DNA of 64,000 nt, from assembly GCF_039613825.1 (NCBI RefSeq), contig NZ_CP154826.1, positions 1,426,001 through 1,490,000 of the forward strand, written 5' to 3'. The DNA comes from Diaminobutyricibacter sp. McL0608. GTDB taxonomy: Bacteria; Actinomycetota; Actinomycetes; Actinomycetales; Microbacteriaceae. Below the pieces are notes generated by a model, which was given only the letters and a program-made list of their open reading frames with translations, had not been told where the DNA came from and did not search any database. Made by a program: the position numbers and the translations under genes. Below, piece by piece: positions 19,053 through 30,225 of this stretch; positions within the stretch are counted from its first letter, which is position 1, and each line of letters opens with the position of its first letter.

Positions 19053-19955
19053 ATGGCCGAAGCACCGCTCACCGTCGTCGTGGCGATCAACCCGCAGGCG
19101 TCGTTCGGCAAACGCCGCGAGGTCGGTCCGCACGTTGTCGAACGTCTGCGCCGGGCCGGGCACAGGGTCGTCGACGTCGCCGAACCGAACGTGGAACTGC
19201 TGCGGCGCGAGACCATCCGGGCTGTCGAAGCGGGCGCTGATGCTCTCGTGGTCGTCGGCGGCGACGGGATGGTCAGCCTCGGCACCAACATCGTGGCCCA
19301 GACCGACATCCCGCTCGGAATCGTTCCCAGCGGGACCGGCAACGATCTCGCTGCCGGCCTCGGCATCCGCATCGACGACACCGAAGCAGCCACAGACCAG
19401 TTGCTGGCCGCCCTCGGCAAGCCTCCGCGCATCATCGACGCCGGCCTTATCAAGCACGGCGAGCTGACGACCTGGTTCGCGTGCGTGGTCTCGGCGGGGT
19501 TCGACGCGACCGTCAATGAGCGTGCGAACATGATGACCCGCCCGCGCGGGCGTTCGCGCTATGTGTTCGCGATGCTGCGCGAGCTCGCGACACTGAAGCC
19601 GATCGAATACGAGGTCGAGGCGGACGGGGTGGTCTCGCGCCGTAGGGCACTGCTGATCTCGGTCGCCAACAACGTCTCGCTCGGCGGCGGGATGCGGATC
19701 GTGCCGCATGCGGAACTCGACGACGGCTATCTGGACCTCTTCGTGGTCGAACCCATGTCCCGGCTGGGCTTTCTCCGGGTGTTCCCGAAAGTATTCCAGG
19801 GGACGCATACGACGCTCCCCGAGGTCTCGTTCCAGAGGGTGCGGTCGGTGAAGCTCAGCGCGGACCGTGTGGTCGCCTACGCGGACGGCGAACGTGTGGG
19901 CGCGCTGCCCGTCGAGATCAGTCTGGTTCCCGCATCCCTTCGCGTGCTCTCCTGA
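19053..19955 (+). CDS. Diacylglycerol kinase family lipid kinase
   Basis: 300 residues of the DAGK/YegS/sphingosine-kinase fold. INPQASFGKR at the N-terminus and VVVGGDGMVSLG form the nucleotide site; PSGTGNDLAAGLGI follows. In the C-terminal domain, GGGMRIVPHAELDDGYLD is typical. It phosphorylates a lipid such as diacylglycerol at the inner membrane face; the substrate is not certain. CATAAT lies eight bases before the ATG. Confidence 0.9.
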   Translation: MAEAPLTVVVAINPQASFGKRREVGPHVVERLRRAGHRVVDVAEPNVELLRRETIRAVEAGADALVVVGGDGMVSLGTNIVAQTDIPLGIVPSGTGNDLAAGLGIRIDDTEAATDQLLAALGKPPRIIDAGLIKHGELTTWFACVVSAGFDATVNERANMMTRPRGRSRYVFAMLRELATLKPIEYEVEADGVVSRRRALLISVANNVSLGGGMRIVPHAELDDGYLDLFVVEPMSRLGFLRVFPKVFQGTHTTLPEVSFQRVRSVKLSADRVVAYADGERVGALPVEISLVPASLRVLS

Positions 19956-19986
19956 GCCGCGCCGCGCCCGACGCGTGCCCGCCGGT

Positions 19987-20016
19987 TTGGTCGGGGCCCA
20001 CGGGGTATGGCATACT
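19987..20016 (+). promoter_or_regulatory. Putative tRNA-Glu promoter
   Basis: TTGGTC (19987-19992), an 18-base spacer, then CATACT (20011-20016), 16 bases before the tRNA. Confidence 0.5.
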
Positions 20017-20032
20017 CGATGAGTTGCAAAGC

Positions 20033-20105
20033 GGCCCCATCGTTTAGCGGCCTAGGACGTCGCCCTCTCACGGCGGTAACGCGGGTTCAAATCCCGCTGG
20101 GGTCA
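20033..20105 (+). tRNA. tRNA-Glu (anticodon CTC)
   Basis: The 73-base cloverleaf has acceptor GGCCCCA/TGGGGTC (one G-U pair), anticodon stem CGCC(G) with loop bases CTC, T-arm GGGTTCAAATCCC and discriminator A. CCA is not encoded. An integrase remnant lies 116 bases downstream. Confidence 0.96.
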
Positions 20106-20110
20106 CAATC

Positions 20111-20148
20111 GCCCGGATACCAGTCATTTACTGGTGTCCGGGCTTTTT
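20111..20148 (+). terminator. Strong terminator after tRNA-Glu
   Basis: A 14-bp stem (20111-20124 with 20130-20143, one G-U pair) with a five-base loop, followed by TTTTT. Confidence 0.9.
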
Positions 20149-20221
20149 CGTTTCGTCGGCGCTGAAGCCGCGAAATCGACTCCGTGGCAACACTTTGGAA
20201 ACCGTTGATTTCATTGCTGCG

Positions 20222-20437
20222 TTATCGAGAGCAGATCTTCGTCCGGCTGCCGTAGAAGTCCGGATCGTCTCCGCCATGCTCTCTCGTTGGATCGCGCAAC
20301 GCGTCGACGAGGAAGCCTGAGATGGGGATGGAGCGGCGCTCGTAGTCTTTCGGTGGCTCCACCTGCTGGTAGCACCTGTCTGCGAGGACCGTCTGCTGAA
20401 CCGTCAGGCGCCTTCTTGCGAGGTCGAGAGCCGCCAA
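20222..20437 (-). pseudogene. Tyrosine integrase fragment
   Basis: The short frame reads LDLARRRLTVQQTVLADRCY and then PPKDYERRSIPISGFLVDAL. This is the pattern of the central region of phage-type tyrosine recombinases (beta strands between the first catalytic arginine and the helical core). The rest of the enzyme, including the catalytic RHxxR and Tyr, is absent. Its place next to tRNA-Glu suggests a relic of island integration at that tRNA. Confidence 0.55.
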
Positions 20438-20553
20438 CCAGGAAACCGGGCCGCCAAGTGGCGCTTACTCGACCTCCGCGAGGCGTGGCATACCTGATTC
20501 ACCGACGCAATTGCGCGTAACGGGATCGTTCAGCGTGCGTCGATTTAGCGCCT

Positions 20554-21195
20554 CTACATCGGTTTGTGTGCGAGGACTACGAGCGATGGGGCTGTCGACC
20601 GAGGATCTAGTGTCGCCTGGAGGTCGATCACGAAGTCGTTCTCCTCGAGTGTTTCAGCGACGTCTTCCAGCGGTCGTTTGGCCATGTGCACGTTCATCGG
20701 GTGCCCTCCGTAGCCTTCGGTCTTGGTGTGCGTCGACGAACCGAGGTGGCCGCCGAGAAGCAGAACACCACCCGGCTGAAGCTTCTCGAAGAACTGCCCA
20801 ATAACCGCGCCGATGGAGTCGTCCGGAACGTGGTGCAGCACCCACCAGCAGATGATGCCGGCCAGGTGTGCTGCATCGACCGGAAGCTGAGTGATCGACC
20901 CGACGGTGAAGTCAATGTCTGGGCGATGTGTTCGGGCGATCTCGATGAGACGTGGGGACAGATCGATGCCGCTGATGTCGAGACCCTTGTCTTTCAGGTG
21001 GGCCGTGACGCGTCCCGGGCCACACCCAGCGTCGAGAACCGGGCCCTTCGCCTTGCTCAGGGCCGCAAAGGCGTCCAGAAACGCCCACACGAAAGGGTCC
21101 CAGTGGCCGATTGCGGCATCGACAAAGTCTGTGTAGCTATCAGCCACTGTGTCATACGAGCTCCGCGTGCTCTCGATCCAGTCGATGTCTGTCAC
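20554..21195 (-). CDS. Class I SAM-dependent methyltransferase
   Basis: 213 residues. The SAM-binding motif I is VLDAGCGPGRVTAHL, motif II-like GIDLSPRLIEIAR follows, then LQPGGVLLLGGH. It is a type 11/25 small-molecule methyltransferase; the substrate is unknown. GTG start with CATAGT eight bases upstream. It opens the accessory island and has no operon partner. Confidence 0.85.
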   Translation of the reverse strand: MTDIDWIESTRSSYDTVADSYTDFVDAAIGHWDPFVWAFLDAFAALSKAKGPVLDAGCGPGRVTAHLKDKGLDISGIDLSPRLIEIARTHRPDIDFTVGSITQLPVDAAHLAGIICWWVLHHVPDDSIGAVIGQFFEKLQPGGVLLLGGHLGSSTHTKTEGYGGHPMNVHMAKRPLEDVAETLEENDFVIDLQATLDPRSTAPSLVVLAHKPM

Positions 21196-21354
21196 CCAGT
21201 CACACTATGGACACTGCCACTCTGCAAGCCCGCAACACGCTCGAAGCGAGCGCCTGATTCACCAAGTCCGGCGCCATCGCTCACGTCCGTAAGCCGGTCG
21301 CTCTCCGTGCGCGTTTGGCCATGGGCTAAAGGGCACGGCGCGAATCGTCCGCGG

Positions 21355-21708
21355 CTACTCGCCGAGGACGTTGGGCTGGTCGAGGATCCATCGCCAAGTA
21401 CCGTCCGGCTGCCGGTGAGCTACTTCTGCTGTGGCGCCGCCCGGAAATTTTGTCGATGTGAGTGCCCAGTCTCCGTTGCACAACGCGGGTCGCTGCGGTG
21501 CTGCCGTGAACGTCGGTCGATCGGCGAGAAGTCGAGTGTAGAACTCGTGAATTTCGGCCTTCCCAATTGCTGTTGTACCGTCCGCGAGTGCCAGCACGGC
21601 GTCTTCCTCATAGAGGTCCGTGAGCGCGTCGGCGTCACCGGCGTTCGCTTGCTCGATAAATAGTCGGCCGAGGTCTTCAGGCTGCGCTGGACGCTCCATC
21701 CACTCCAT
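21355..21708 (-). CDS. SnoaL/NTF2-like fold protein
   Basis: 117 residues with the NTF2-like pattern: FIEQANAGDADALTDLYEED, then IGKAEIHEFYTRLL and a C-terminal DGTWRWILDQPN. Members are polyketide cyclases, isomerases or stress proteins; the activity here is unknown. The frame is open far upstream, but the ATG at 21708 fits the domain start. Confidence 0.75.
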   Translation of the reverse strand: MEWMERPAQPEDLGRLFIEQANAGDADALTDLYEEDAVLALADGTTAIGKAEIHEFYTRLLADRPTFTAAPQRPALCNGDWALTSTKFPGGATAEVAHRQPDGTWRWILDQPNVLGE

Positions 21709-21794
21709 AATCGCACCGCAAGCCGCCCGGTGGCGGATCCCCGACTGCAACTGCCCATCCAAAAACGCTTCGCTTGCGCGGCCGACTGGCTTCT

Positions 21795-22310
21795 TTAGAC
21801 GGGTCGGAGCTCGAAGAGCGGATGGCGTCCGGCTTCGGCGAGGTAATCCTCGGGGGTGTCGTCGACGCGTATTCGGCATCGGCGCAGTACGCCGACAGGT
21901 GGCCTCATGTTCGGGCCAAGCAATTTACGTAGCAGGCGCGGCGAGCGGAACGGCTCAAGCACTCGACGAAGAATCGCGGCTGCATCATCGAGCGGAACTT
22001 CGTAGGCACGAACCGGACTGCGACGGCCGCCAGGATGGATCACAATCGCCTCGCCGGCTACACGAAGGTTTCGAGCCCAGCCGTCTGCACCGTAAGTAGC
22101 GTGGACGTACCAGCCTCCATCGAGGTTCAGCAAGGTGACGGGCACCGTTCGCTCGATCCCCGACCGGCGACCCCGAACGATCAGAAGAACGTTTGGTGCA
22201 CCCGTTGGCACCCCGGCGGAGATCATCCGTCGGGCGAGTGGATCGACCAGCCGGAACATTCGGAGCGCGAACCGTACTCGCGGGTCGGGCTGCGACTGCC
22301 GAGAACTCAT
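21795..22310 (-). CDS. Deazaflavin-dependent nitroreductase-family protein
   Basis: 171 residues resembling the Ddn/FDOR split-barrel family that uses F420 or related cofactors: NVLLIVRGRRSGIERTVPV, GGWYVHATYGADGWARNLR, then the C-terminal DDTPEDYLAEAGRHPLFEL. The start ATG has AAGG about nine bases upstream. Substrate unknown. It ends 86 bases from the NTF2-like gene, and both lie on the minus strand. Confidence 0.75.
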   Translation of the reverse strand: MSSRQSQPDPRVRFALRMFRLVDPLARRMISAGVPTGAPNVLLIVRGRRSGIERTVPVTLLNLDGGWYVHATYGADGWARNLRVAGEAIVIHPGGRRSPVRAYEVPLDDAAAILRRVLEPFRSPRLLRKLLGPNMRPPVGVLRRCRIRVDDTPEDYLAEAGRHPLFELRPV

Positions 22311-22387
22311 CGACGATCACCTTCTCGCTGAAACGACTCAGAGCACACGACATTCTACGTCCATGACCTCCCGAACGACTGCGCGAT

Positions 22388-22917
22388 TACCGGTCCCTCA
22401 TCGGACATCTCGTCAACACTCCCTCTGTCTGGCGGAGACTTCGGGGCGACGCTTTCTGCATGAATGAATTACTGATCGGATACGCACGCGTGTCCACATA
22501 CGAGCAAGACCTCACCGCACAACGCGTCGCCCTCGAGCGACTCGGCGTCGACCCTGCATACGTCTTCACCGACCACGGGCTGACAGGGACCAATCGCGCC
22601 CGCCCCGGACTGCGTGAAGCTCTCGCCGCGTGCCGGACCGGCGACACCCTCGTGGTGGCGAAACTCGACCGGCTGGCACGCTCGCTACGCGACGCGAAGG
22701 ACATCGTCGACGAGCTCACCGCCGAACACGTCAAGCTCAGCAACGGCGGCTCAGTCCATGACCCGCTTGACCCCGTCGGACGGCTGCTGTTCAACGTGCT
22801 CGCGATGGTTGCGGAGTTCGAATCCGACCTGATCCGCGCTCGAACTCGAGAAGGCATACAGGTAGCGAAGTCAGACAACGTCAGAGAGCAAGAGGTAGCC
22901 GAAGCGGATCGCTCTGA
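22388..22917. repeat. Resolvase direct repeat, copy 1 (shortened)
   Basis: Starts at CCGGTCCCTC and matches 24392-25069 almost base for base, except that it lacks the segment equivalent to 24874-25025 (152 bases). It includes about 70 bases upstream of the resolvase start. Confidence 0.9.
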
Positions 22918-22936
22918 GGACACTTTGACGGCCTAG
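22460..22936 (+). pseudogene. Truncated serine resolvase, HTH lost
   Basis: The catalytic domain is intact: YARVSTYEQD with the nucleophile serine, and KLDRLARSLRD with catalytic arginines. After residue 137 a 152-bp deletion (compared with the copy at 24463) removes the helix-turn-helix DNA-binding domain and shifts the frame, giving an unrelated 21-residue tail. It could still make a DNA-binding-defective protein, so it is probably inactive as a recombinase. Confidence 0.8.
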
Positions 22937-23187
22937 TGACTACTCACCGGAATTTCGTCCGGGCGAGCAGGGCGAACGTGGGGAATTAGCCGCTCCTCGA
23001 CGGCGCCGAACCGCCGAAAGTTCGCCCGTGCATATATCACGCTTGGTTCGTTTGCCCCACCGGCGAAGGACGGGTCATCATTCTGAACTGCGTCGTTTTC
23101 CCAGAAGCAGACTGGACAAATCTCATAGCTGCCGTTCTCGGGGTCCTCGAGGGTTAGGTAACCACAGCACGGACATGGGAACTTCAT
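22933..23187 (-). CDS. CPCC-type cysteine-rich protein, 84 aa
   Basis: Begins MKFPCPCCGYLTLEDPENGS and continues YEICPVCFWENDAVQ. The CPCC and CPVC pairs and the following DPSFAGGANEPS are the mark of the cysteine-rich CPCC family, probably zinc-binding. It ends in an overlap with the broken resolvase. These proteins are often found near toxin-immunity genes; the function is not established. Confidence 0.8.
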   Translation of the reverse strand: MKFPCPCCGYLTLEDPENGSYEICPVCFWENDAVQNDDPSFAGGANEPSVIYARANFRRFGAVEERLIPHVRPARPDEIPVSSH

Positions 23188-23378
23188 TTGCCCAGACTGC
23201 CGTGGACGACGCCCGAGCACAATCCGTTGCGGGCGGGAGCATCCGCGCACCATTGAGCATCCGCTGTCGTGCGGTTGGCCAGCTATCGGACCGGAAACTC
23301 TTCCGTCTGGGTGGCCTGGTCGTCCAACCAACCGTGCGGCTTGCGCAGAATGCGTTTGCGGTGCTCGATGATGGGCTC

Positions 23379-23819
23379 ATGGATGAGATCGCTCTAGGTG
23401 GAGCTCACAACGAAATCACCATCCGCATCGCCGGACGCGAGCGTCCCGATGACCTGAGCTGGGAAGACGGAAACTGGCTCGTTGGAGCAATCAAAGTTGA
23501 CGTAGATGGCATGACCGCGAATCTAGACCGTGTCGCACTGCGCGCCGACGAGTTACGTGTGTTTAGCGATGAAATGGCGGAGGTGTACCAGAACCTCACT
23601 GGCACTGCTCGTCTTATCTCCACGGAGGCATGGATCTCCCTTGCCATAAAGGCGAACCCAAACGGCACTGTTGAGGCAGGCGGGATCGTGCGCGACAAGC
23701 GACGACCCGGTAACGAGCTCCAGTTCGCCCTTCGGGACCTGGACCAGACGCATCTCGCTCCAATGATCGACAGCCTCCAGCAGACGAGCGAGCGCTACCC
23801 CGTCGTTGGTGGAAGGTAG
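23379..23819 (+). CDS. WapI-type immunity protein
   Basis: 146 residues from the ATG at 23379. The pattern EITIRIAGRERP, DDLSWEDGNWLVGAIKVDVD, ELRVFSDEMAEVYQNLTGTA and LQFALRDLDQTHLAP is that of the WapI/DUF6228 immunity family, which neutralises WapA-like polymorphic toxins. No toxin gene is beside it, so it looks like an orphan. The frame is open to 23028, but upstream starts would overlap the CPCC gene and lie outside the domain. Base composition is less GC-rich than the core genes. Confidence 0.68.
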   Translation: MDEIALGGAHNEITIRIAGRERPDDLSWEDGNWLVGAIKVDVDGMTANLDRVALRADELRVFSDEMAEVYQNLTGTARLISTEAWISLAIKANPNGTVEAGGIVRDKRRPGNELQFALRDLDQTHLAPMIDSLQQTSERYPVVGGR

Positions 23820-23948
23820 CGAGCGCCTATCCCGGTAGCGGGTCGTCATGCGCACAGCCGAGCGCAAGCGATCTGCTCACAGAAGCGCCTAGCCCAATCG
23901 GCACACGGGAGACGATCACACGGTTCTCGAGGTCGAGCGCAGCGCTCT

Positions 23949-24236
23949 CTACATCGCGACCACTTCGCCCACCTCGACGCTGCCCCCGTAGGAGAGGCCG
24001 GGGCATCCTTCGGCTAGGGCGGTCGCCGCGGCCAGGTCGGTTGCATCTATAAGGGTGTAGCCGGACAACGCGTTGGCTCCGGCGGACGTTCCCAGCAGGT
24101 TGGTCGCCCCGACGCGGCTGCCCATGTCGGTCACGGCCGCGCCGAGCTTCTGGAACCAGGCGCCCCACGCAGCGACCTCTTCCTCGGTGGCATTCACGGC
24201 GGGATCGTTGCGGAAAGCAAGAACGAAAGCAGACAT
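23949..24236 (-). CDS. YCII-domain protein, 95 aa
   Basis: Starts MSAFVLAFRNDPAVNATEEE. It has the single ferredoxin-like fold of YCII proteins, with WGAWFQKLGAAVTDMG and the C-terminal GCPGLSYGGSVEVGEVVAM. Its family often pairs with ECF sigma factors, which are not seen here. The start is sure: GAAGGAG lies seven bases before the ATG. Confidence 0.8.
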   Translation of the reverse strand: MSAFVLAFRNDPAVNATEEEVAAWGAWFQKLGAAVTDMGSRVGATNLLGTSAGANALSGYTLIDATDLAAATALAEGCPGLSYGGSVEVGEVVAM

Positions 24237-24391
24237 GGTGTGCTCCTTCAGATTCTGGTCGACGTTAAATGTCGACTCAGCAGTACGACGTGAGAGCGCA
24301 TCCGAAATCGACAGGTGACAGAAAATGATTCTGCGACATGGATAGGTGACATTTGAGGTGGGTGTGGAAGGCGACCGACGGCGCACGCTAG

Positions 24392-25069
24392 CCGGTCCCT
24401 CCTTGGGACATCTCGTCAACACTCCCTCTGTCTGGCGGAGACTTCGGGGCGACGCTTTCTGCATGAATGAATTACTGATCGGATACGCACGCGTGTCCAC
24501 ATACGAGCAAGACCTCACCGCACAACGCGTCGCCCTCGAGCGACTCGGCGTCGACCCTGCATACGTCTTCACCGACCACGGGTTGACGGGGACTAATCGC
24601 GCCCGCCCCGGACTGCGTGAAGCTCTCGCCGCGTGCCGGACCGGCGACACCCTCGTGGTGGCGAAACTCGACCGGCTGGCACGCTCGCTACGCGACGCGA
24701 AGGACATTGTCGACGAGCTCACCGCCAAACACGTCAAGCTCAGCATCGGCGGTTCAGTCCATGACCCACTCGACCCCGTCGGACGGCTGCTGTTCAACGT
24801 GCTCGCGATGGTTGCGGAGTTCGAATCCGACCTGATCCGCGCTCGAACTCGAGAAGGCATGCAGGTAGCGAAGGCGAAAGGTCGCCTCCGCGGCAAGCAG
24901 CCAAAACTCTCTCTCCCGCAGCAGCGTCACCTAATGGAGGTCCACAACGCAGGTACTCACACCACGGCGGAACTCGCCGAACTCTTCAACGTCGCGCGAT
25001 CTACCGTCTACAGAACCATTCAGCGTCAGACAACGTCAGAGAGCAAAAGGTAACGGTAGCGGATGGCTG
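24392..25069. repeat. Resolvase direct repeat, copy 2 (complete)
   Basis: Same orientation as 22388-22917. Together the two copies bracket about 1.5 kb with the CPCC, immunity and YCII genes. The copies differ by scattered substitutions and the 152-bp deletion. Confidence 0.9.
24463..25053 (+). CDS. Serine recombinase (resolvase/invertase family)
   Basis: 196 residues, a normal length for small resolvases. The catalytic serine is in YARVSTYEQD, the arginines in KLDRLARSLRD, and the long E-helix follows AMVAEFESDLIRARTREGM. The C-terminal HTH reads TTAELAELFNVARSTVYRTI. It is intact and could act on sites in its own repeated upstream region. The upstream frame is open to 24346, but the ATG at 24463 starts the domain and is shared with the other copy. 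Confidence 0.9.
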   Translation: MNELLIGYARVSTYEQDLTAQRVALERLGVDPAYVFTDHGLTGTNRARPGLREALAACRTGDTLVVAKLDRLARSLRDAKDIVDELTAKHVKLSIGGSVHDPLDPVGRLLFNVLAMVAEFESDLIRARTREGMQVAKAKGRLRGKQPKLSLPQQRHLMEVHNAGTHTTAELAELFNVARSTVYRTIQRQTTSESKR

Positions 25070-25082
25070 AGCGGGCAGTTGC

Positions 25083-25460
25083 TCAGTTAGCCGGAATGAT
25101 CGTTCCCTGGTGATAGACAGCCCGCCACCCCGACTCATATCGACGCCACAGGGTGCAGCGACGCGAGAGTCGACCGGCGAAGGAAAGCTGGTACGTGACG
25201 AGGTACAAATCCACTGCCACCGACGATGCCGAGAACTCCTCGATACTCCAGGCGTCATCGTCGGGATCGACCCCCTCGGCATAGCGGCGTTCGACCTCGT
25301 CTAGAACGAAGGAACGTTGATAGACCGATCCAGACGCGCCCACCTCGAAGAAGTCGGGTTCCAGCAGGGACTCGATCAACGAGCGGTCCGCCCCAACTGG
25401 CAGGCGGTGAAGGAGCGGTTCCAGGGCGGCAAGCTCGCTGTCTTTCGCCTCATTCGTCAT
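25083..25460 (-). CDS. DUF4440/NTF2-like protein, 125 aa
   Basis: Pattern ELAALEPLLHRLPVGADRS, LIESLLEPDFFEVGASG and the final RRYESGWRAVYHQGTI are typical of the DUF4440 subgroup of NTF2-like proteins. Activity unknown. It converges with the resolvase and diverges from the OLD-family nuclease. Confidence 0.72.
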   Translation of the reverse strand: MTNEAKDSELAALEPLLHRLPVGADRSLIESLLEPDFFEVGASGSVYQRSFVLDEVERRYAEGVDPDDDAWSIEEFSASSVAVDLYLVTYQLSFAGRLSRRCTLWRRYESGWRAVYHQGTIIPAN

Positions 25461-25633
25461 GGCTTCATTCTCATTGAGCGTTCGACCAATGAGGGGTGTG
25501 CCCCGCCCGCAAGCCGATCGGTCAGCGCATCATTTTGCTACTTGAGTCCAAGTCTCCTGGATTCAAACCATGCGGGCAATGGTTACCCCCAGTTCTCGGC
25601 CGCAGAACCGGCCGAGCGCAGTCAATGGATTTC

Positions 25634-25649
25634 CTGGCATTCATGCCAG
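25634..25649. promoter_or_regulatory. Palindrome CTGGCAT-TC-ATGCCAG before the OLD gene
   Basis: Perfect 7-bp arms with a two-base centre, ending nine bases before the ATG at 25659. It could be an operator for a repressor or a hairpin near the start codon. No regulator gene is adjacent. Confidence 0.45.
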
Positions 25650-25658
25650 TCTTGCAGG

Positions 25659-27482
25659 ATGGGTGTCCTGAACCGTGACGACTTTGAAGCCGCCTTTATT
25701 ACGACCAACCCGGATTGGGCATCGGGTTCTGCGGACCAGTTCTCATTCGGAATCGAAGAGATTCGCCTCAAGAGCGGTGATGTGATCCGACCGCAGGCGG
25801 CCGGCGTCACGGCCATCGTAGGGGCGAACAACGCCGGCAAGTCGACCATTCTTCGCGAAGTGGTCGAGACCCTCCAGAATCACCCGAGCAACCCCACGCC
25901 ACCCAAGCTCTCTGTCGAGTCGATTGGTTTGGCCGCGACGGGGCAACCCCGTGACCTTTTCGCGTGGTTGCTTGGGAATTCGACTTTCGCCGTGCAAGGC
26001 CAATCGATGGGCTTCACTCGTCCGATGGCGGGATTCGAGCAGCCGAACATGCTCGCCCACTTCTGGACGCAACGGTCTAACGGCCTTGCAGGCCTCGCTG
26101 CTTACCTTTGCTTCTACGGAAATGCTGCGGGTCGCTTTTCTGTCGGTGGTTCAGCGGAGATGCGTGATGCGGTTGATGATCCGCCCAGCCACCCAGTCCA
26201 TTCACTCCAAGACTCGCGAAACCTTCGTGATCGAGTGAGCGCATTATCCGAGTCAGTCTTTCAGCGCCCGCTGACACTCGACACTTTGGCACGCACGATA
26301 CGACTTCGCGTAGGGAAGGTGGACGCGGAAGCTCCCACTGTCGACAACATCCCTCGCGCCTACCGTGAAGCAATGGCCACCTTGCGTCCGCTCGATGAGC
26401 AAGGCGACGGGATGCGTGGGTTCTTCGGGCAAGTACTGCCGGTCGTCGCTGCAACGTACCCCGTGATCATCCTCGACGAGCCTGAAGCCTTCCTGCACCC
26501 TCCGCAGGCACACGCGCTTGGCGTTGAGCTTGGAAAACTCGCCGTAGAGAGGGGCGTACAGATACTCATCGCGACACACGACCGTCACATCCTCACTGGG
26601 CTGCTGGACTCTCAGGTCGATGTGTCCGTCGTGCGCGCCACTCGGGGTTCGGGAAGCGCTCGCGCGTTTCAGCTGGACGCGTCAGAATTGCGCGGGCTCT
26701 GGAACGATCCAGTTCTGCACTATTCAAACGTGCTTGATGGACTGTTCCACCGCGTCGTTGTGTTGGCTGAAGCCGAAGGGGACTGCGCGTATCTAGGGGC
26801 AGCCTTGGACTGCGCCAGTCGCGAGCCCTCGAGTATTCCAGCCGGAGAGGTCCTATTCGTCGCAACGGGTGGCAAAGCGGGGATGGCGAAAGTGGCCTCA
26901 GCTCTGAAGGCGATCGAGGTCCCCGTAATCGCAGCGCCGGATCTCGACATGATTTCAAACGAAGCTGAGCTTTCCAGCCTTGTTCGCTCGCTAGGCGGAG
27001 ACTGGAACGATGCCGGCAAGCAGCTTTGGACAAGGGCCACGGCTGCTCAACGGGCTCCGCGCGACCCTGTGAAGGTGTCGCACGTCCTCGATGCCGTTCA
27101 GGCCGCGCTGCAGCCGCGGATCGACGAGAACTACACGGCGGAGGTCCGAGACGTTCTGCTCGCAAACGCGCGAGCCCGGGAGTCGGCTTGGGCGGATGTG
27201 AAGGATTACGGTGTCGATGCGTTCCGTGGGACCGCTCGAACCGACCTCGATCTGTTGCTCGAGCTGTTGGAATCCTGGGGAATCGTCATGGTTCGATACG
27301 GCGAGTTGGAGCGTCTTGCCCCAGAGGTGTCTGTCCGGAAAGGCCCGGGGTGGCTCCAAGCGGCGCTTGCTCAAGGAGCCCAATGCAATGAGCGGAGCCA
27401 GACTCACATCGACCGGATTATCCGCGTTGGAATTGGTCGACTCGAGGCGAGGACCACTACTTCGAGTCGACCAGACGAATAA
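25659..27482 (+). CDS. OLD-family ATPase with TOPRIM nuclease domain
   Basis: 607 residues. The N-terminal ABC-type ATPase has Walker A GANNAGKST (about residue 55), Walker B VIILDEPEAFLHP (about 270) and the switch histidine ATHDRHI (about 305). The C-terminal TOPRIM domain has the first acidic site in VVVLAEAEGDCAYLG (about 365) and the DxD in APDLDMI (about 425). This order defines OLD-like endonucleases, several of which defend against phage. There is no UvrD-like helicase beside it, so it is not a Gabija pair. The frame is open to 25317, but the ATG at 25659 starts the domain. The context is a mobile island. Confidence 0.82.
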   Translation: MGVLNRDDFEAAFITTNPDWASGSADQFSFGIEEIRLKSGDVIRPQAAGVTAIVGANNAGKSTILREVVETLQNHPSNPTPPKLSVESIGLAATGQPRDLFAWLLGNSTFAVQGQSMGFTRPMAGFEQPNMLAHFWTQRSNGLAGLAAYLCFYGNAAGRFSVGGSAEMRDAVDDPPSHPVHSLQDSRNLRDRVSALSESVFQRPLTLDTLARTIRLRVGKVDAEAPTVDNIPRAYREAMATLRPLDEQGDGMRGFFGQVLPVVAATYPVIILDEPEAFLHPPQAHALGVELGKLAVERGVQILIATHDRHILTGLLDSQVDVSVVRATRGSGSARAFQLDASELRGLWNDPVLHYSNVLDGLFHRVVVLAEAEGDCAYLGAALDCASREPSSIPAGEVLFVATGGKAGMAKVASALKAIEVPVIAAPDLDMISNEAELSSLVRSLGGDWNDAGKQLWTRATAAQRAPRDPVKVSHVLDAVQAALQPRIDENYTAEVRDVLLANARARESAWADVKDYGVDAFRGTARTDLDLLLELLESWGIVMVRYGELERLAPEVSVRKGPGWLQAALAQGAQCNERSQTHIDRIIRVGIGRLEARTTTSSRPDE

Positions 27483-28128
27483 ATCTTCCACGACTTGCGT
27501 CCCGCTGCTCCACTGACATTTGGCTTACAGGCGCCGTTCGACCGCCGTTACCTCGATGAAAGGGGTGCCCGTAAGCCGGTCGATCTGCGGCACACCAGAG
27601 GTCGCCTGGGCCCAATCCGACCGATCGCAATTTATTGCGCGAGCGCGATTCCCGTAAGACCGGCCCGCAAATATGCCCGGTGACGGTGCCCCAAACGCTA
27701 CAGCCCGAATCATGCTCATCGGTCGCGCCCGCGAACTAACGGATTGGTGTCGCCCTCACCCTCGGCGGCAGTCCCTACGCGCCTAGTGAACTTGGACCGC
27801 CAAGGGTGGTCACCTCAAGCCGATCGCCGCGCTCTCGTTGGTTGGTGCATGGCTGAGTAGGACCGTGGCAATCGGTCCTGGAGCCATTCCTTCGGCTGCC
27901 CGCACACAGCATCCTCGCGCCTTGAGCATCCGCGTCAAGGGTCCAGCTTCGCTGCATCGCGAAGCGACGCGGAGCGCCCTTGATTCGGTGGCTCACGGCG
28001 CCAAGATCAACGGTCGCGCGGCCGGTGAATTGAGAATCGTGGTGTTCGCGCCATGGCTACGCCATAAAGGGCGCAGGTGTGGAGCGGCAACAAAATGGCA
28101 ACGACTGAACAAGTTCTGACGGCGCGTT
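27483..28128. other. No convincing gene
   Basis: Several short frames on both strands have no family pattern or ribosome binding site. I see no tRNA, terminator or long repeat. It may be decayed island DNA. Confidence 0.5.
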
Positions 28129-28446
28129 TTACGGGACGACCGGGCCGTCGGGTGCTTCCCACGAGTGCAGCTGCGGCCAGTCGGATGGGATCTTCCCCGT
28201 TGTCCGGCGATGCAGACGGCCGGCTTCGTCCACCCAGACATGCATCCGGCGGTAGACGGTCGGGTAGGTCGGACCCAGAAACCACGCCACCGGGTTGACC
28301 AGCTCTACCGCGAGGCGCCAAACGGGCGGCACAACGAGGTGGCGCATCCACATCTCAGCGGTGCGGAGGTCGCCGTCGAGGTGCCAGTCGTCGTTCATGC
28401 GGCGCATCATCTCCTTGCGGAGCTTTTGTACGGCCGTCGTGTGCAT
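28129..28446 (-). CDS. Hypothetical protein, 105 aa
   Basis: From MHTTAVQKLRKEMMRRMNDD to the stop, with a hydrophobic patch VVPPVWRLAVELVNPVAWFL and a polar C-terminus rich in Trp and His. It looks like a real coding region but no family is recognised. The frame is open for 99 codons upstream, so it may be the 3' part of a larger broken gene. Confidence 0.45.
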   Translation of the reverse strand: MHTTAVQKLRKEMMRRMNDDWHLDGDLRTAEMWMRHLVVPPVWRLAVELVNPVAWFLGPTYPTVYRRMHVWVDEAGRLHRRTTGKIPSDWPQLHSWEAPDGPVVP

Positions 28447-28770
28447 GCTGACAATGATGCCCGCCTCACGTTCTGCTCGGTTTCCCCAGTTCGAGGTGCT
28501 TCCTGTTTTGAGAACCCGGCGGCGCGGTCGGATTGAACGCGCCAGAGACGTGAACGAATTCAGGAACTCATGTGAGGGATGCGCCCCCCACGCCAATGAA
28601 CCGAACAGAACCCCTGGTCGGAACCACGGCGAGCCCCCATCCTCGTCAGACTTCCTGAATAACTGACCCCCGCACCCGCGGTGCCTAACCCAGGGCACGA
28701 TCGGGCGCCTTTGGTCGAACCCGCGTCGTGTTTCGCGACACATGCTGTCCGATCGGGCAAGGTTGGGTCC
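28447..28770. other. Non-coding stretch with a 9-bp inverted repeat
   Basis: ATTCAGGAA (28558-28566) and TTCCTGAAT (28652-28660) are reverse complements about 85 bases apart. Otherwise I see no gene, and it may be the right edge of the accessory island. Confidence 0.35.
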
Positions 28771-29016
28771 GTGGATGTCAAAAAGGCGCGCGTCTTCGTC
28801 ATTGTTGGCGCTGCCATCCTGGCGCTGGCGGTCATCGCGGCCGCCGTGGCATTTGGTGCCGGGTATCCGCCTTTGGGTTGGCTGCTGATTGCACTGGCCA
28901 TTTCATATTTCATCCCCGTGGCGCTCCTGATGGAGCAGAGTCGACGCCGGAAAAGGATCGGTCAGAGCGACCGCGACACCACGAGGCACGGACCGGACGG
29001 CAACGCCATCCGATAG
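28771..29016 (+). CDS. Small two-helix membrane protein, 81 aa
   Basis: The GTG start gives MDVKKARVFVIVGAAI. Two adjacent transmembrane segments (about residues 7-30 and 32-53) are followed by a basic tail (EQSRRRKRIGQ). It lies just before the terC riboswitch and runs the same way. Function unknown. Confidence 0.55.
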   Translation: MDVKKARVFVIVGAAILALAVIAAAVAFGAGYPPLGWLLIALAISYFIPVALLMEQSRRRKRIGQSDRDTTRHGPDGNAIR

Positions 29017-29027
29017 GATCGGAGTCG

Positions 29028-29146
29028 CGAAGGGGAGTATCCCGAAGGGCCCGATGAGGGTCCGCGCCGTGAACGTCATCACGGATCGTCCATACGGTCC
29101 CGGGCACGGCGGCATCCGCAAGCTGCGGATGCGGGAGAGACTTTCG
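29028..29146 (+). ncRNA. yybP-ykoY (manganese) riboswitch
   Basis: The 5' motif GAAGGGGAGTA (29029-29039), the internal GTCATCAC and the 3' motif GAGACTTTCG match the conserved parts of this Mn2+ aptamer. Its closing helix P1 is CGAAGG (29028-29033) with CTTTCG (29141-29146). It lies directly before a TerC gene, the usual target. TAGGAT at 29014-29019 is a fitting -10 box. CTTTCG can instead pair with CGAAAG (29166-29171), which holds the terC ribosome binding site, so the switch is probably translational and turned on by Mn2+. Confidence 0.85.
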
Positions 29147-29178
29147 GGCCGTTTTCGGCACCCTTCGAAAGGTTTTCT

Positions 29179-30225
29179 GTGGAGCTCGCTCTTCCCGCCT
29201 GGTTCGAGATCACCTCGGCGATCGTCCTGGTCCTGATCCTGCTCGCCGACCTGCTCATCGTCGTCAAGCGCCCGCACATCCCGAGCCCGAAGGAGTCGAC
29301 GCTCTGGGTCGTCTTCTATGTCGCCCTCGCGCTGATCTTCGCGCTGCTGATGTACCTGATCGGCGACGCCGAGCACGCCGGGCAGTTCCTCGCCGGCTGG
29401 CTCACGGAATACAGCCTCAGCATCGACAATCTTTTCGTATTCGTGCTGATCATGACTAGGTTCGCCGTGCCCAGGAAGAACCAGCAGGAAGTGCTGATGG
29501 TGGGCATCATCATCGCTCTGGTCTTCCGTGGGGTGTTCATCGTCCTCGGAGCCTCGCTGATCGAGAGCTTCAGCTGGATCTTCTACTTCTTCGGGGCGTT
29601 CCTCCTCTACACCGCCGTCCACCAGGCGTTCAGCTCGCACGACGCTGACGAGGATCAGGACAACGCCTTCGTGCGCTTCATGCGCAAGCGACTGAAGGTG
29701 TCGAACCAGTACGAGGGTTTCAAACTGCGGACGACGGTGAGCGGAACACGCATGTTCACGCCGCTGATCATCGTCTTCCTCGCGCTCGGCACGACCGACC
29801 TGCTCTTCGCGCTCGACTCGATCCCGGCGATCTTCGGCATCACGACGAGTCCGTTCATCGTCTTCGCGGCCAACGTCTTCGCGCTGATGGGTCTCCGGCA
29901 GCTCTACTTCCTGCTCGGGCACCTGCTCGACCGCCTCGAATACCTCAAATACGGCATCGCATTCATCCTCGCCTTCATCGGTGTGAAGCTCGTGTTCCAC
30001 GCTCTCCACACGAACGAAGTGTCGTTCGTCAACGGCGGCCATCCGGTGGAATGGGCGCCCGAGATCAGCACCTGGACTTCACTGGCGGTGATCCTCATCT
30101 CGATGGCGGTCGCTACGATTGCAAGCCTGGTGAAGCTTCGCATCACCGGTGTCAGCGTCGCCGAAGCGATTCACGGCAGCGACACGACCGATCAGTCGGC
30201 GAACGAGGAGAACACGGGTCGATGA
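29179..30225 (+). CDS. TerC-family integral membrane protein, Mn2+ exporter type
   Basis: 348 residues with about nine transmembrane helices. The TerC core is seen in TEYSLSIDNLFVFVLIM and in FLALGTTDLLFALDSIPAIF, whose acidic residues bind metal. The family exports manganese or supplies metals to secreted enzymes. GTG start; GAAAGG (29167-29172) lies six bases upstream and is the element the riboswitch can hide. A PP2C phosphatase gene overlaps its stop codon (ATGA). Confidence 0.92.
   Translation: MELALPAWFEITSAIVLVLILLADLLIVVKRPHIPSPKESTLWVVFYVALALIFALLMYLIGDAEHAGQFLAGWLTEYSLSIDNLFVFVLIMTRFAVPRKNQQEVLMVGIIIALVFRGVFIVLGASLIESFSWIFYFFGAFLLYTAVHQAFSSHDADEDQDNAFVRFMRKRLKVSNQYEGFKLRTTVSGTRMFTPLIIVFLALGTTDLLFALDSIPAIFGITTSPFIVFAANVFALMGLRQLYFLLGHLLDRLEYLKYGIAFILAFIGVKLVFHALHTNEVSFVNGGHPVEWAPEISTWTSLAVILISMAVATIASLVKLRITGVSVAEAIHGSDTTDQSANEENTGR

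Follow-up and report, generated by a model that had tools for sequence, protein, structure and literature searches.

A lone OLD-family nuclease on a genomic island of Diaminobutyricibacter sp. McL0608 and its candidate role in phage defence

The gene, its island and its neighbours

We begin with the gene under study and the DNA on which it lies. The window is the whole stretch of 64,000 nucleotides that was analysed (contig NZ_CP154826.1, positions 1,426,001 to 1,490,000), and all positions are counted from its first letter (Table 1). The open reading frame starts with ATG, holds 607 codons for residues without an internal stop and is the only copy in its genome; its start codon matches the methionine start of the nearest relatives (L002 and L006). 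Pfam AAA_21 matches the ATPase half at E=3e-13 and AAA_15 does so at E=2e-8, each above its cut-off. The C-terminal 251 residues match Pfam OLD-like_TOPRIM at E=0.01, under the model's cut-off, so a Pfam-based annotation would overlook the nuclease half of the protein. Among the PADLOC models, Old scores best (E=4e-19, over residues 269-456); a PADLOC scan had been one of the checks proposed in a sequence-only reading of the locus. The Old model matches 37 of 37 family members at E<=1e-5, and the AriA, NsnB, AbiLi and PtuA ATPase models likewise match all 37, while the GajA models match the protein weakly (E 2e-8). The top sequence match in the PDB is the class 1 OLD protein of Thermus scotoductus (TsOLD, 6p74, E=4e-6), and P2 Old aligns by BLASTP with 23% identity over 230 aa (E=2e-11, one comparison). 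With an N-terminal ABC ATPase and a C-terminal TOPRIM, two of the features by which OLD proteins are recognised, the protein is assigned by its sequence to the OLD family. Scans for promoters and terminators around the gene gave 0 and 1 sites, not above shuffled sequence.

Table 1. Features of the locus and of the encoded protein, in window positions
Feature	Position	Strand	Remark
Genomic island, tRNA-Glu to TerC side	20118..28680	.	right edge between 28556 and 29009
Cysteine-rich CPCC gene and WapI-like immunity gene	22936-23816		on the island
Serine resolvase/invertase, full-length copy	24346..25053	+	
Divergent DUF4440-like gene	25083..25460	-	nearest neighbour, 198 bp upstream of the OLD gene
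OLD-family ATPase-TOPRIM nuclease	25659..27482	+	intact, 607 aa
Walker A G-A-N-N-A-G-K-S, residues 55-62	25821..25844	+	includes K61
QGDG, residues 248-251	26400..26411	+	would hold the ABC signature position
Walker B DEPEAFLHPPQ (273-283) to H-loop TH (306-307)	26475..26579	+	columns mostly invariant
TOPRIM acids E371 and D375	26769..26783	+	37/37; align with P2 Old E398/E402
TOPRIM DxD, D428 and D430	26940..26948	+	37/37; align with P2 Old D453/D455
Long helical insert, residues 431-547	26949..27299	+	from models; holds W511, K515 and invariant G518
GELE, residues 548-551	27300..27311	+	acids E549 and E551; alignment of 37
R560-K561, candidate basic catalytic residues	27336..27341	+	R560 on P2 Old K550

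The gene lies between diacylglycerol-kinase-like (DAGK-like) and TerC genes that are 9.2 kb apart, compared with about 570 bp in the one congener genome that was compared (G001). The alignment with this genome stops 11 bp past tRNA-Glu (window 20117) and restarts at 29009, and a weak match (61%) begins at 28556; these breakpoints give an insert of about 8.4-8.9 kb. For the OLD gene GC3 is 0.66, whereas the flanking DAGK, TerC and leuC genes reach 0.85-0.88. The compositional contrast and the empty site in the congener indicate that the OLD gene is on foreign DNA. Besides the genes in Table 1, the island carries methyltransferase, SnoaL-like, F420-dependent and YCII-like genes; a second defence system could not be made out there. 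At the Rfam gathering threshold, the region 19900-29200 contains tRNA only, and a close DNA match between the island and plasmids was not found.

The serine resolvase gene of the island is present twice (22390-22913 and 24392-25068), the copies agreeing at 97% across 482 aligned bases. The first is without the C-terminal HTH and runs on into sequence that resembles the extreme 3' end of its counterpart, as an internal deletion would leave it. With this mixed gene content and the two resolvase copies, the island gives the impression of a segment that was built up by accretion and has partly decayed. A 71-aa fragment at tRNA-Glu (20222-20437, minus strand) resembles, by eye, the C-terminus of a tyrosine integrase, and has neither a Pfam nor a PHROG match. 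Allowing up to 7 mismatches, the window contains the 26-nt 3' end of tRNA-Glu a single time, and no attachment repeat was found. The gene had been read as part of a mobile island: the island itself stands, since the congener is without the insert, and the word mobile applies to its past, there being no second copy of the tRNA end in the window and only the integrase-like remnant beside the tRNA.

A degenerate 21-nt repeat has three copies on the island (21287-21307, 25507-25527 and 27569-27589), two of which bracket the OLD gene. At up to 3 mismatches it is found at 6 sites in the genome (G000), against 2 for the reversed control; the pattern was derived from its own three copies, and the repeat is not clearly enriched genome-wide. 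The interval between DAGK and TerC is also occupied in three other genera (about 4 to 10 kb in G002, G003 and G007). By eye it holds transporter and other ordinary genes in all three, which gives no sign of a defence hot spot.

The divergent DUF4440 gene had been named as the only close neighbour of the OLD gene. It is indeed the nearest gene, and its Pfam score falls just under the cut-off (24.8 vs 25.2 bits).

Motifs, predicted fold and class

We now consider the protein, for which conservation is given over an alignment (A2, n=37) in which the window protein is joined by 36 relatives, taken from GTDB genomes and from IMG/VR contigs. In Walker A, G55, N57, N58, G60, K61 and S62 are invariant, as are D273, E274, P275, E276 and H307 of the Walker B and H-loop region. 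The QGDG motif would occupy the ABC signature position, judged by the order of the motifs; it is invariant in 13 of 13, and D250 and G251 are found in 37 of 37. Among the acids of the last TOPRIM motif, E551 is present in all 37 and E549 in 36, with D in the remaining one. The spacing between D430 and E551 is 120 residues in the window protein, and the corresponding spacing across the 37 clusters around two values, near 80 (79-85) and near 120 (116-126). Within the insert, position 515 is K in 30 of 37. The R560 column holds R or K in 11 proteins, H in 17 and other residues in 9, so a basic residue is present in the window protein and is not uniform across the clade.

Comparing the TOPRIM half with P2 Old by profiles (probability 92.5, E=5e-7, one comparison) pairs E371, D375, D428, D430, E549 and E551 with E398, E402, D453, D455, D541 and E543 of P2 Old, sets GELE opposite GDIE, and places R560 opposite K550. 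This pairing is preferred to a MAFFT alignment with P2 Old, which pairs the first four acids only and misplaces the last motif. The roles of the metal-site and basic residues in P2 Old and TsOLD are taken from PMC7049728, according to which a basic residue is required (R487 in TsOLD, K550 in P2 Old). The sequence-only reading had described an ATPase followed by TOPRIM with all key motifs, and had held that mutated TOPRIM acids would speak against it. The description agrees with the Pfam matches of the ATPase half and with the TOPRIM acids, which are intact and aligned in 37 of 37.

The whole protein was modelled by AlphaFold2 using A2 (mean pLDDT 92.0, pTM 0.88). A Foldseek search of the PDB with this model gives TsOLD (6p74) as the first match (E=2e-9), at TM-scores of only 0.39/0.44, so the domains are differently arranged in the model and in 6p74; chains of retron Eco8, Rad50 and GajA follow. 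A structural comparison of this kind, with GajA and P2 Old as references, had been proposed in the sequence-only reading. VIA-align superposes 337 residues on 6p74 across 31-596 (Z 13.8, rmsd 6.4) and, for the ATPase alone, ranks many SMC/Rad50 heads above 6p74 (Z up to 16.8). When the TOPRIM half is modelled alone (pLDDT 94.4), Foldseek returns nothing from the PDB under 0.001, the top match being Xcc OLD (6njw) at 0.0025. In VIA-align the top 7 rows for this half are all OLD or GajA: Xcc OLD 6njw (Z 12.4 over 162 residues), Bp OLD 6nk8 (11.6 over 152), TsOLD (9.8 over 137) and GajA 8j4t (9.3 over 179) are among them. According to the models, the nuclease half would somewhat more resemble the C-termini of class 2 than TsOLD. 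The models also show additional helices that lie between the DxD strand and that of GExE, together with helices at 563-571 and 578-601. In the viral structure library BFVD, the best matches are giant-virus proteins (Catovirus, Terrestrivirus) named AAA domain or "ATP-dependent endonuclease" (E 1e-8), which, going by the structural match, are possibly OLD-like.

How does this protein relate to the classes of OLD systems already described? It had been argued from the sequence that neither a UvrD helicase nor a reverse transcriptase lies beside the gene, and the genome searches agree. UvrD matches number 7 in the genome, the nearest about 129 kb from the OLD gene, and a search of the whole genome with RVT_1 found no match. 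Class 2 (Gabija) was rejected on the absence of an adjacent GajB and the distance to the nearest UvrD, and class 3 (retron) on the RVT_1 result and the finding of nothing but tRNA by Rfam around the gene. The separate ariA and ariB of class 4 (PARIS) are not seen here, where there is a single polypeptide. What the sequence does present, a stand-alone gene with a variable neighbourhood, is the layout by which class 1 is recognised.

Among the individual systems, P2 Old shares with the window protein the lone ATPase-TOPRIM gene, the six metal-site acids and the K550/R560 pair, and relatives of the window protein adjoin the integrase in prophages whose appearance, by eye, is P2-like. The two differ in that identity in the alignment is 21% and the D455-E543 spacing of P2 Old is 87 (counted from the numbering in PMC7049728) rather than 120. 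TsOLD is the top PDB match by both sequence and Foldseek and has the same domain order, but its D433-E480 spacing is 46 (counted from the same source). PMC7049728 describes TsOLD without the class 2 insert helix and the C-terminal helical domain; the window-protein model differs from TsOLD by its extra helices as well as by the low whole-chain TM-scores. Class 2 OLD and GajA offer, in Xcc 6njw and Bp 6nk8, the C-termini closest to the TOPRIM fold, whereas the UvrD-type GajB is missing from the window. E. coli YbjD/OldB, a proposed class 1 member, is likewise a lone ATPase-TOPRIM protein, but its similarity by BLASTP is not significant (E 0.05) and it sits in an ordinary E. coli chromosomal locus.

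Relatives and their surroundings

The gene family of the window protein is found in 8 of 398 Microbacteriaceae genomes (E<=1e-20) and in 5 of 396 genomes of the phylum (1e-40), its own genome being included in both counts. A search of genome contigs gave 13 loci; in addition, 7 plasmid records (one conjugative; surroundings inspected in 4) and 53 loci on viral contigs have a match, while a tblastn search of the INPHARED phage records at 1e-5 gave none. In a quick tree built by maximum likelihood from 48 rows, 44 family rows separate from P2 Old, YbjD and two GajA (SH-aLRT 95); these four outgroup rows are on very long branches. The rows nearest the window protein are actinobacterial, namely L002 (65% identity), then L003 (the locus of Ruicaihuangia caeni, Microbacteriaceae), L004 and L005, and the viral contigs L033 and L034 come next.

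The neighbours were inspected in 24 of the 53 viral loci. An integrase adjoins the OLD gene in 8 of these 24, being scored by PHROG in L034, L037, L043 and L063 and recognised by eye in L041, L042, L045 and L047. By eye, L041 and L042 present the P2-like order of replication gene, repressor, integrase and OLD gene, and L037 presents the last three of these; tail, terminase and head genes lie upstream of the OLD gene in L036, L055 and L056. Serine recombinases adjoin an OLD relative, or are found no more than about 1 kb away, in L033, L034, L053 and L118, and a serine-recombinase element is a possible recurrent carrier of OLD genes. In L027 (7130-10534) a direct repeat, 91% identical over at least 300 nt, flanks the OLD gene on both sides and codes for proteins with resolvase-type HTH domains.

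Some relatives are broken: homologues in L006, L007 and L012 are frameshifted and that of L117 is annotated as two genes, so the OLD gene is not retained everywhere. These broken copies, along with the remnants on the island, would suit a gene that has decayed and lost its function. In the case of the window gene this is very unlikely, as its frame is open, its motifs are intact, and its pN/pS is well below 1 (0.34-0.42 in four pairs, with synonymous sites close to saturation), a low ratio that points to selection on the protein.

Cellular surroundings were inspected at 21 loci, 11 of them within about 5.5 kb, 9 over the whole stretch, plus the window. Only 4 neighbour families (E<1e-8) are common to any of these loci, each in 3 or fewer. 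Three are, by eye, ABC-transporter ATPase, Lsr2-like and sigma-factor families, and the fourth is a UvrD-type pair made of the GajB of L027 and a PcrA-like gene of L112. A fixed chromosomal gene was accordingly rejected, the gene being absent in the congener and its neighbours varying over the 21 loci; a fixed position in relatives, which had been held to count against a defence island, is thus not what is found.

The same comparison bears on the DUF4440 neighbour. As this gene adjoins the OLD gene divergently on one island, the two could be thought of as halves of a two-gene system. Such a pairing is extremely improbable. Relatives of the DUF4440 protein occur in 59 of 396 family genomes, against the 8 of 398 for OLD, and both occur together only in G000 and G191, on separate contigs in the latter; neighbour families also fail to recur in more than 3 of the 21 loci. 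Its genome distribution rules out the DUF4440 gene as a conserved partner.

Genes scored by PADLOC lie within 8 kb of the OLD gene in 6 of the 21 cellular loci. The scan covered 20 hand-picked proteins from 7 loci, without a matched control, of which 15 match at 1e-5 and 5 do not (two in L003, two in L026 and one in L025); since only proteins picked by eye were scanned, 6 of 21 is a lower bound on the presence of defence genes. The scored neighbours are a cytosine methylase and a Z1 helicase in L003, type I restriction and specificity genes with AbiD in L006, a SIR2-STAND protein in L013 (ThsA model, E=3e-17), PDC-S33 in L025, a complete Gabija (GajA E 5e-225) with type II restriction-modification in L027, and another complete Gabija (GajA E 1e-149) with type III restriction-modification in L114. 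In L003 (10090-16367), the cytosine methylase, an HSP90-like ATPase, the Z1 helicase and a further protein form a row reminiscent of a restriction-type operon. L026 (10109-11523) has, beside the OLD gene, a TIR-like gene (Pfam TIR_2, E=3e-5, under the cut-off) and a further gene; neither has a PADLOC match. PMC10568477 states that OLD genes of class 1 have no other candidate defence genes in their vicinity. The 6 loci tend to go against this generalisation, while the window's own island agrees with it.

With two complete Gabija systems near OLD relatives, we can ask whether the window gene is a relic of such a system, in which GajA has been left without the GajB helicase. The class 2 C-termini come closest to the TOPRIM model, GajA 8j4t also aligns, and the GajA models of PADLOC do match, if weakly, all of which a relic would explain. 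It is nevertheless a most unlikely origin. No UvrD-type gene adjoins the OLD gene by eye in the 21 cellular loci, and the linked ones are the GajB beside its own GajA in L027 and, at a distance of about 6 kb, a PcrA-like gene in L112. L027 and L114 hold complete Gabija systems with their own GajA, so the OLD protein is distinct from GajA, and in the tree the 44 family rows stand apart from both GajA, with the long outgroup branches noted above. The earlier view that this is not a standard Gabija or retron arrangement thus holds by gene content, and for Gabija by these two loci as well.

Function of the protein and meaning of the clade

We infer a defence role from the context and the family: the protein probably serves in phage defence, as a stand-alone OLD nuclease of the P2 Old type whose place in class 1 is given by gene layout only. 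Both P2 Old and TsOLD are ATPase-nucleases, and P2 Old needs its two halves to kill recBC cells (PMC10568477 and PMC7049728). P2 Old is also reported to sense the inhibition of RecBC and to cut tRNA (quoted in PMC13261556). By likeness to these proteins, the ATPase head would bind ATP and either hold the nuclease in check or arm it, and a cue from infection would release two-metal cleavage of nucleic acid by the TOPRIM. The target may be DNA, by nicking or resection, or host tRNA, and phage growth would be halted through destruction of phage DNA or through abortive infection.

A different role, as a housekeeping or repair-like ATPase-nickase that landed on the island and whose link with defence is incidental, is unlikely. 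Some OLD proteins do appear to be non-defence, archaeal Cran1 having a cell-cycle role according to PMC12796447, and the TOPRIM of YbjD, encoded in its ordinary E. coli locus, is dispensable (PMC13261556). Four relatives (L005, L009, L028 and L113) also lie, by eye, among ordinary chromosomal genes. The patchy occurrence in family and phylum, the congener without the gene, and the prophage, plasmid and defence-gene contexts of the relatives all speak against such a role.

Beyond the defence nuclease of P2 Old type, we have considered a more specific reading, in which the clade is a distinct one-protein form of OLD immunity that combines a class 1 layout with a class-2-like TOPRIM, the ATPase serving as guard and the TOPRIM as cutter. 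We regard it as tentative and rather doubtful. The ATPase would sense the loss of a host end-processing nuclease (RecBCD, or AdnAB/AddAB elsewhere), and the TOPRIM would then cut a vital nucleic acid; such a system would be spread by prophages, plasmids and serine-recombinase elements, sometimes together with Gabija or restriction systems. The guard part is drawn by analogy from P2 Old. The genome contains a long UvrD-family frame pair (G000:C1:1313521-1317635), which we take to be AdnAB-like, and by the same analogy this pair would be the guarded object in the present host.

As a kind, a lone OLD nuclease is known. Lone OLD proteins are called poorly understood in PMC13261556, and P2 Old, V. 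cholerae OLD and YbjD are those that the literature consulted names as tested for effects on phages; in the literature searched, no functional test of the widespread OLD branch of the window protein was found. Less known is a clade with motifs of its own (QGDG, W..K..G and GExE), an enlarged helical TOPRIM and partly defence-rich loci. It differs from textbook class 1 in two ways, by the longer helical TOPRIM insert and by the defence neighbours of some relatives, and it may be one of the uncharacterised OLD clades U1-U11 of PMC12796447. The defence-rich loci of the clade would qualify the statement of PMC10568477 on class 1 surroundings, and the clade supplies defined proteins on which to study what lone OLD nucleases sense and what they cut.
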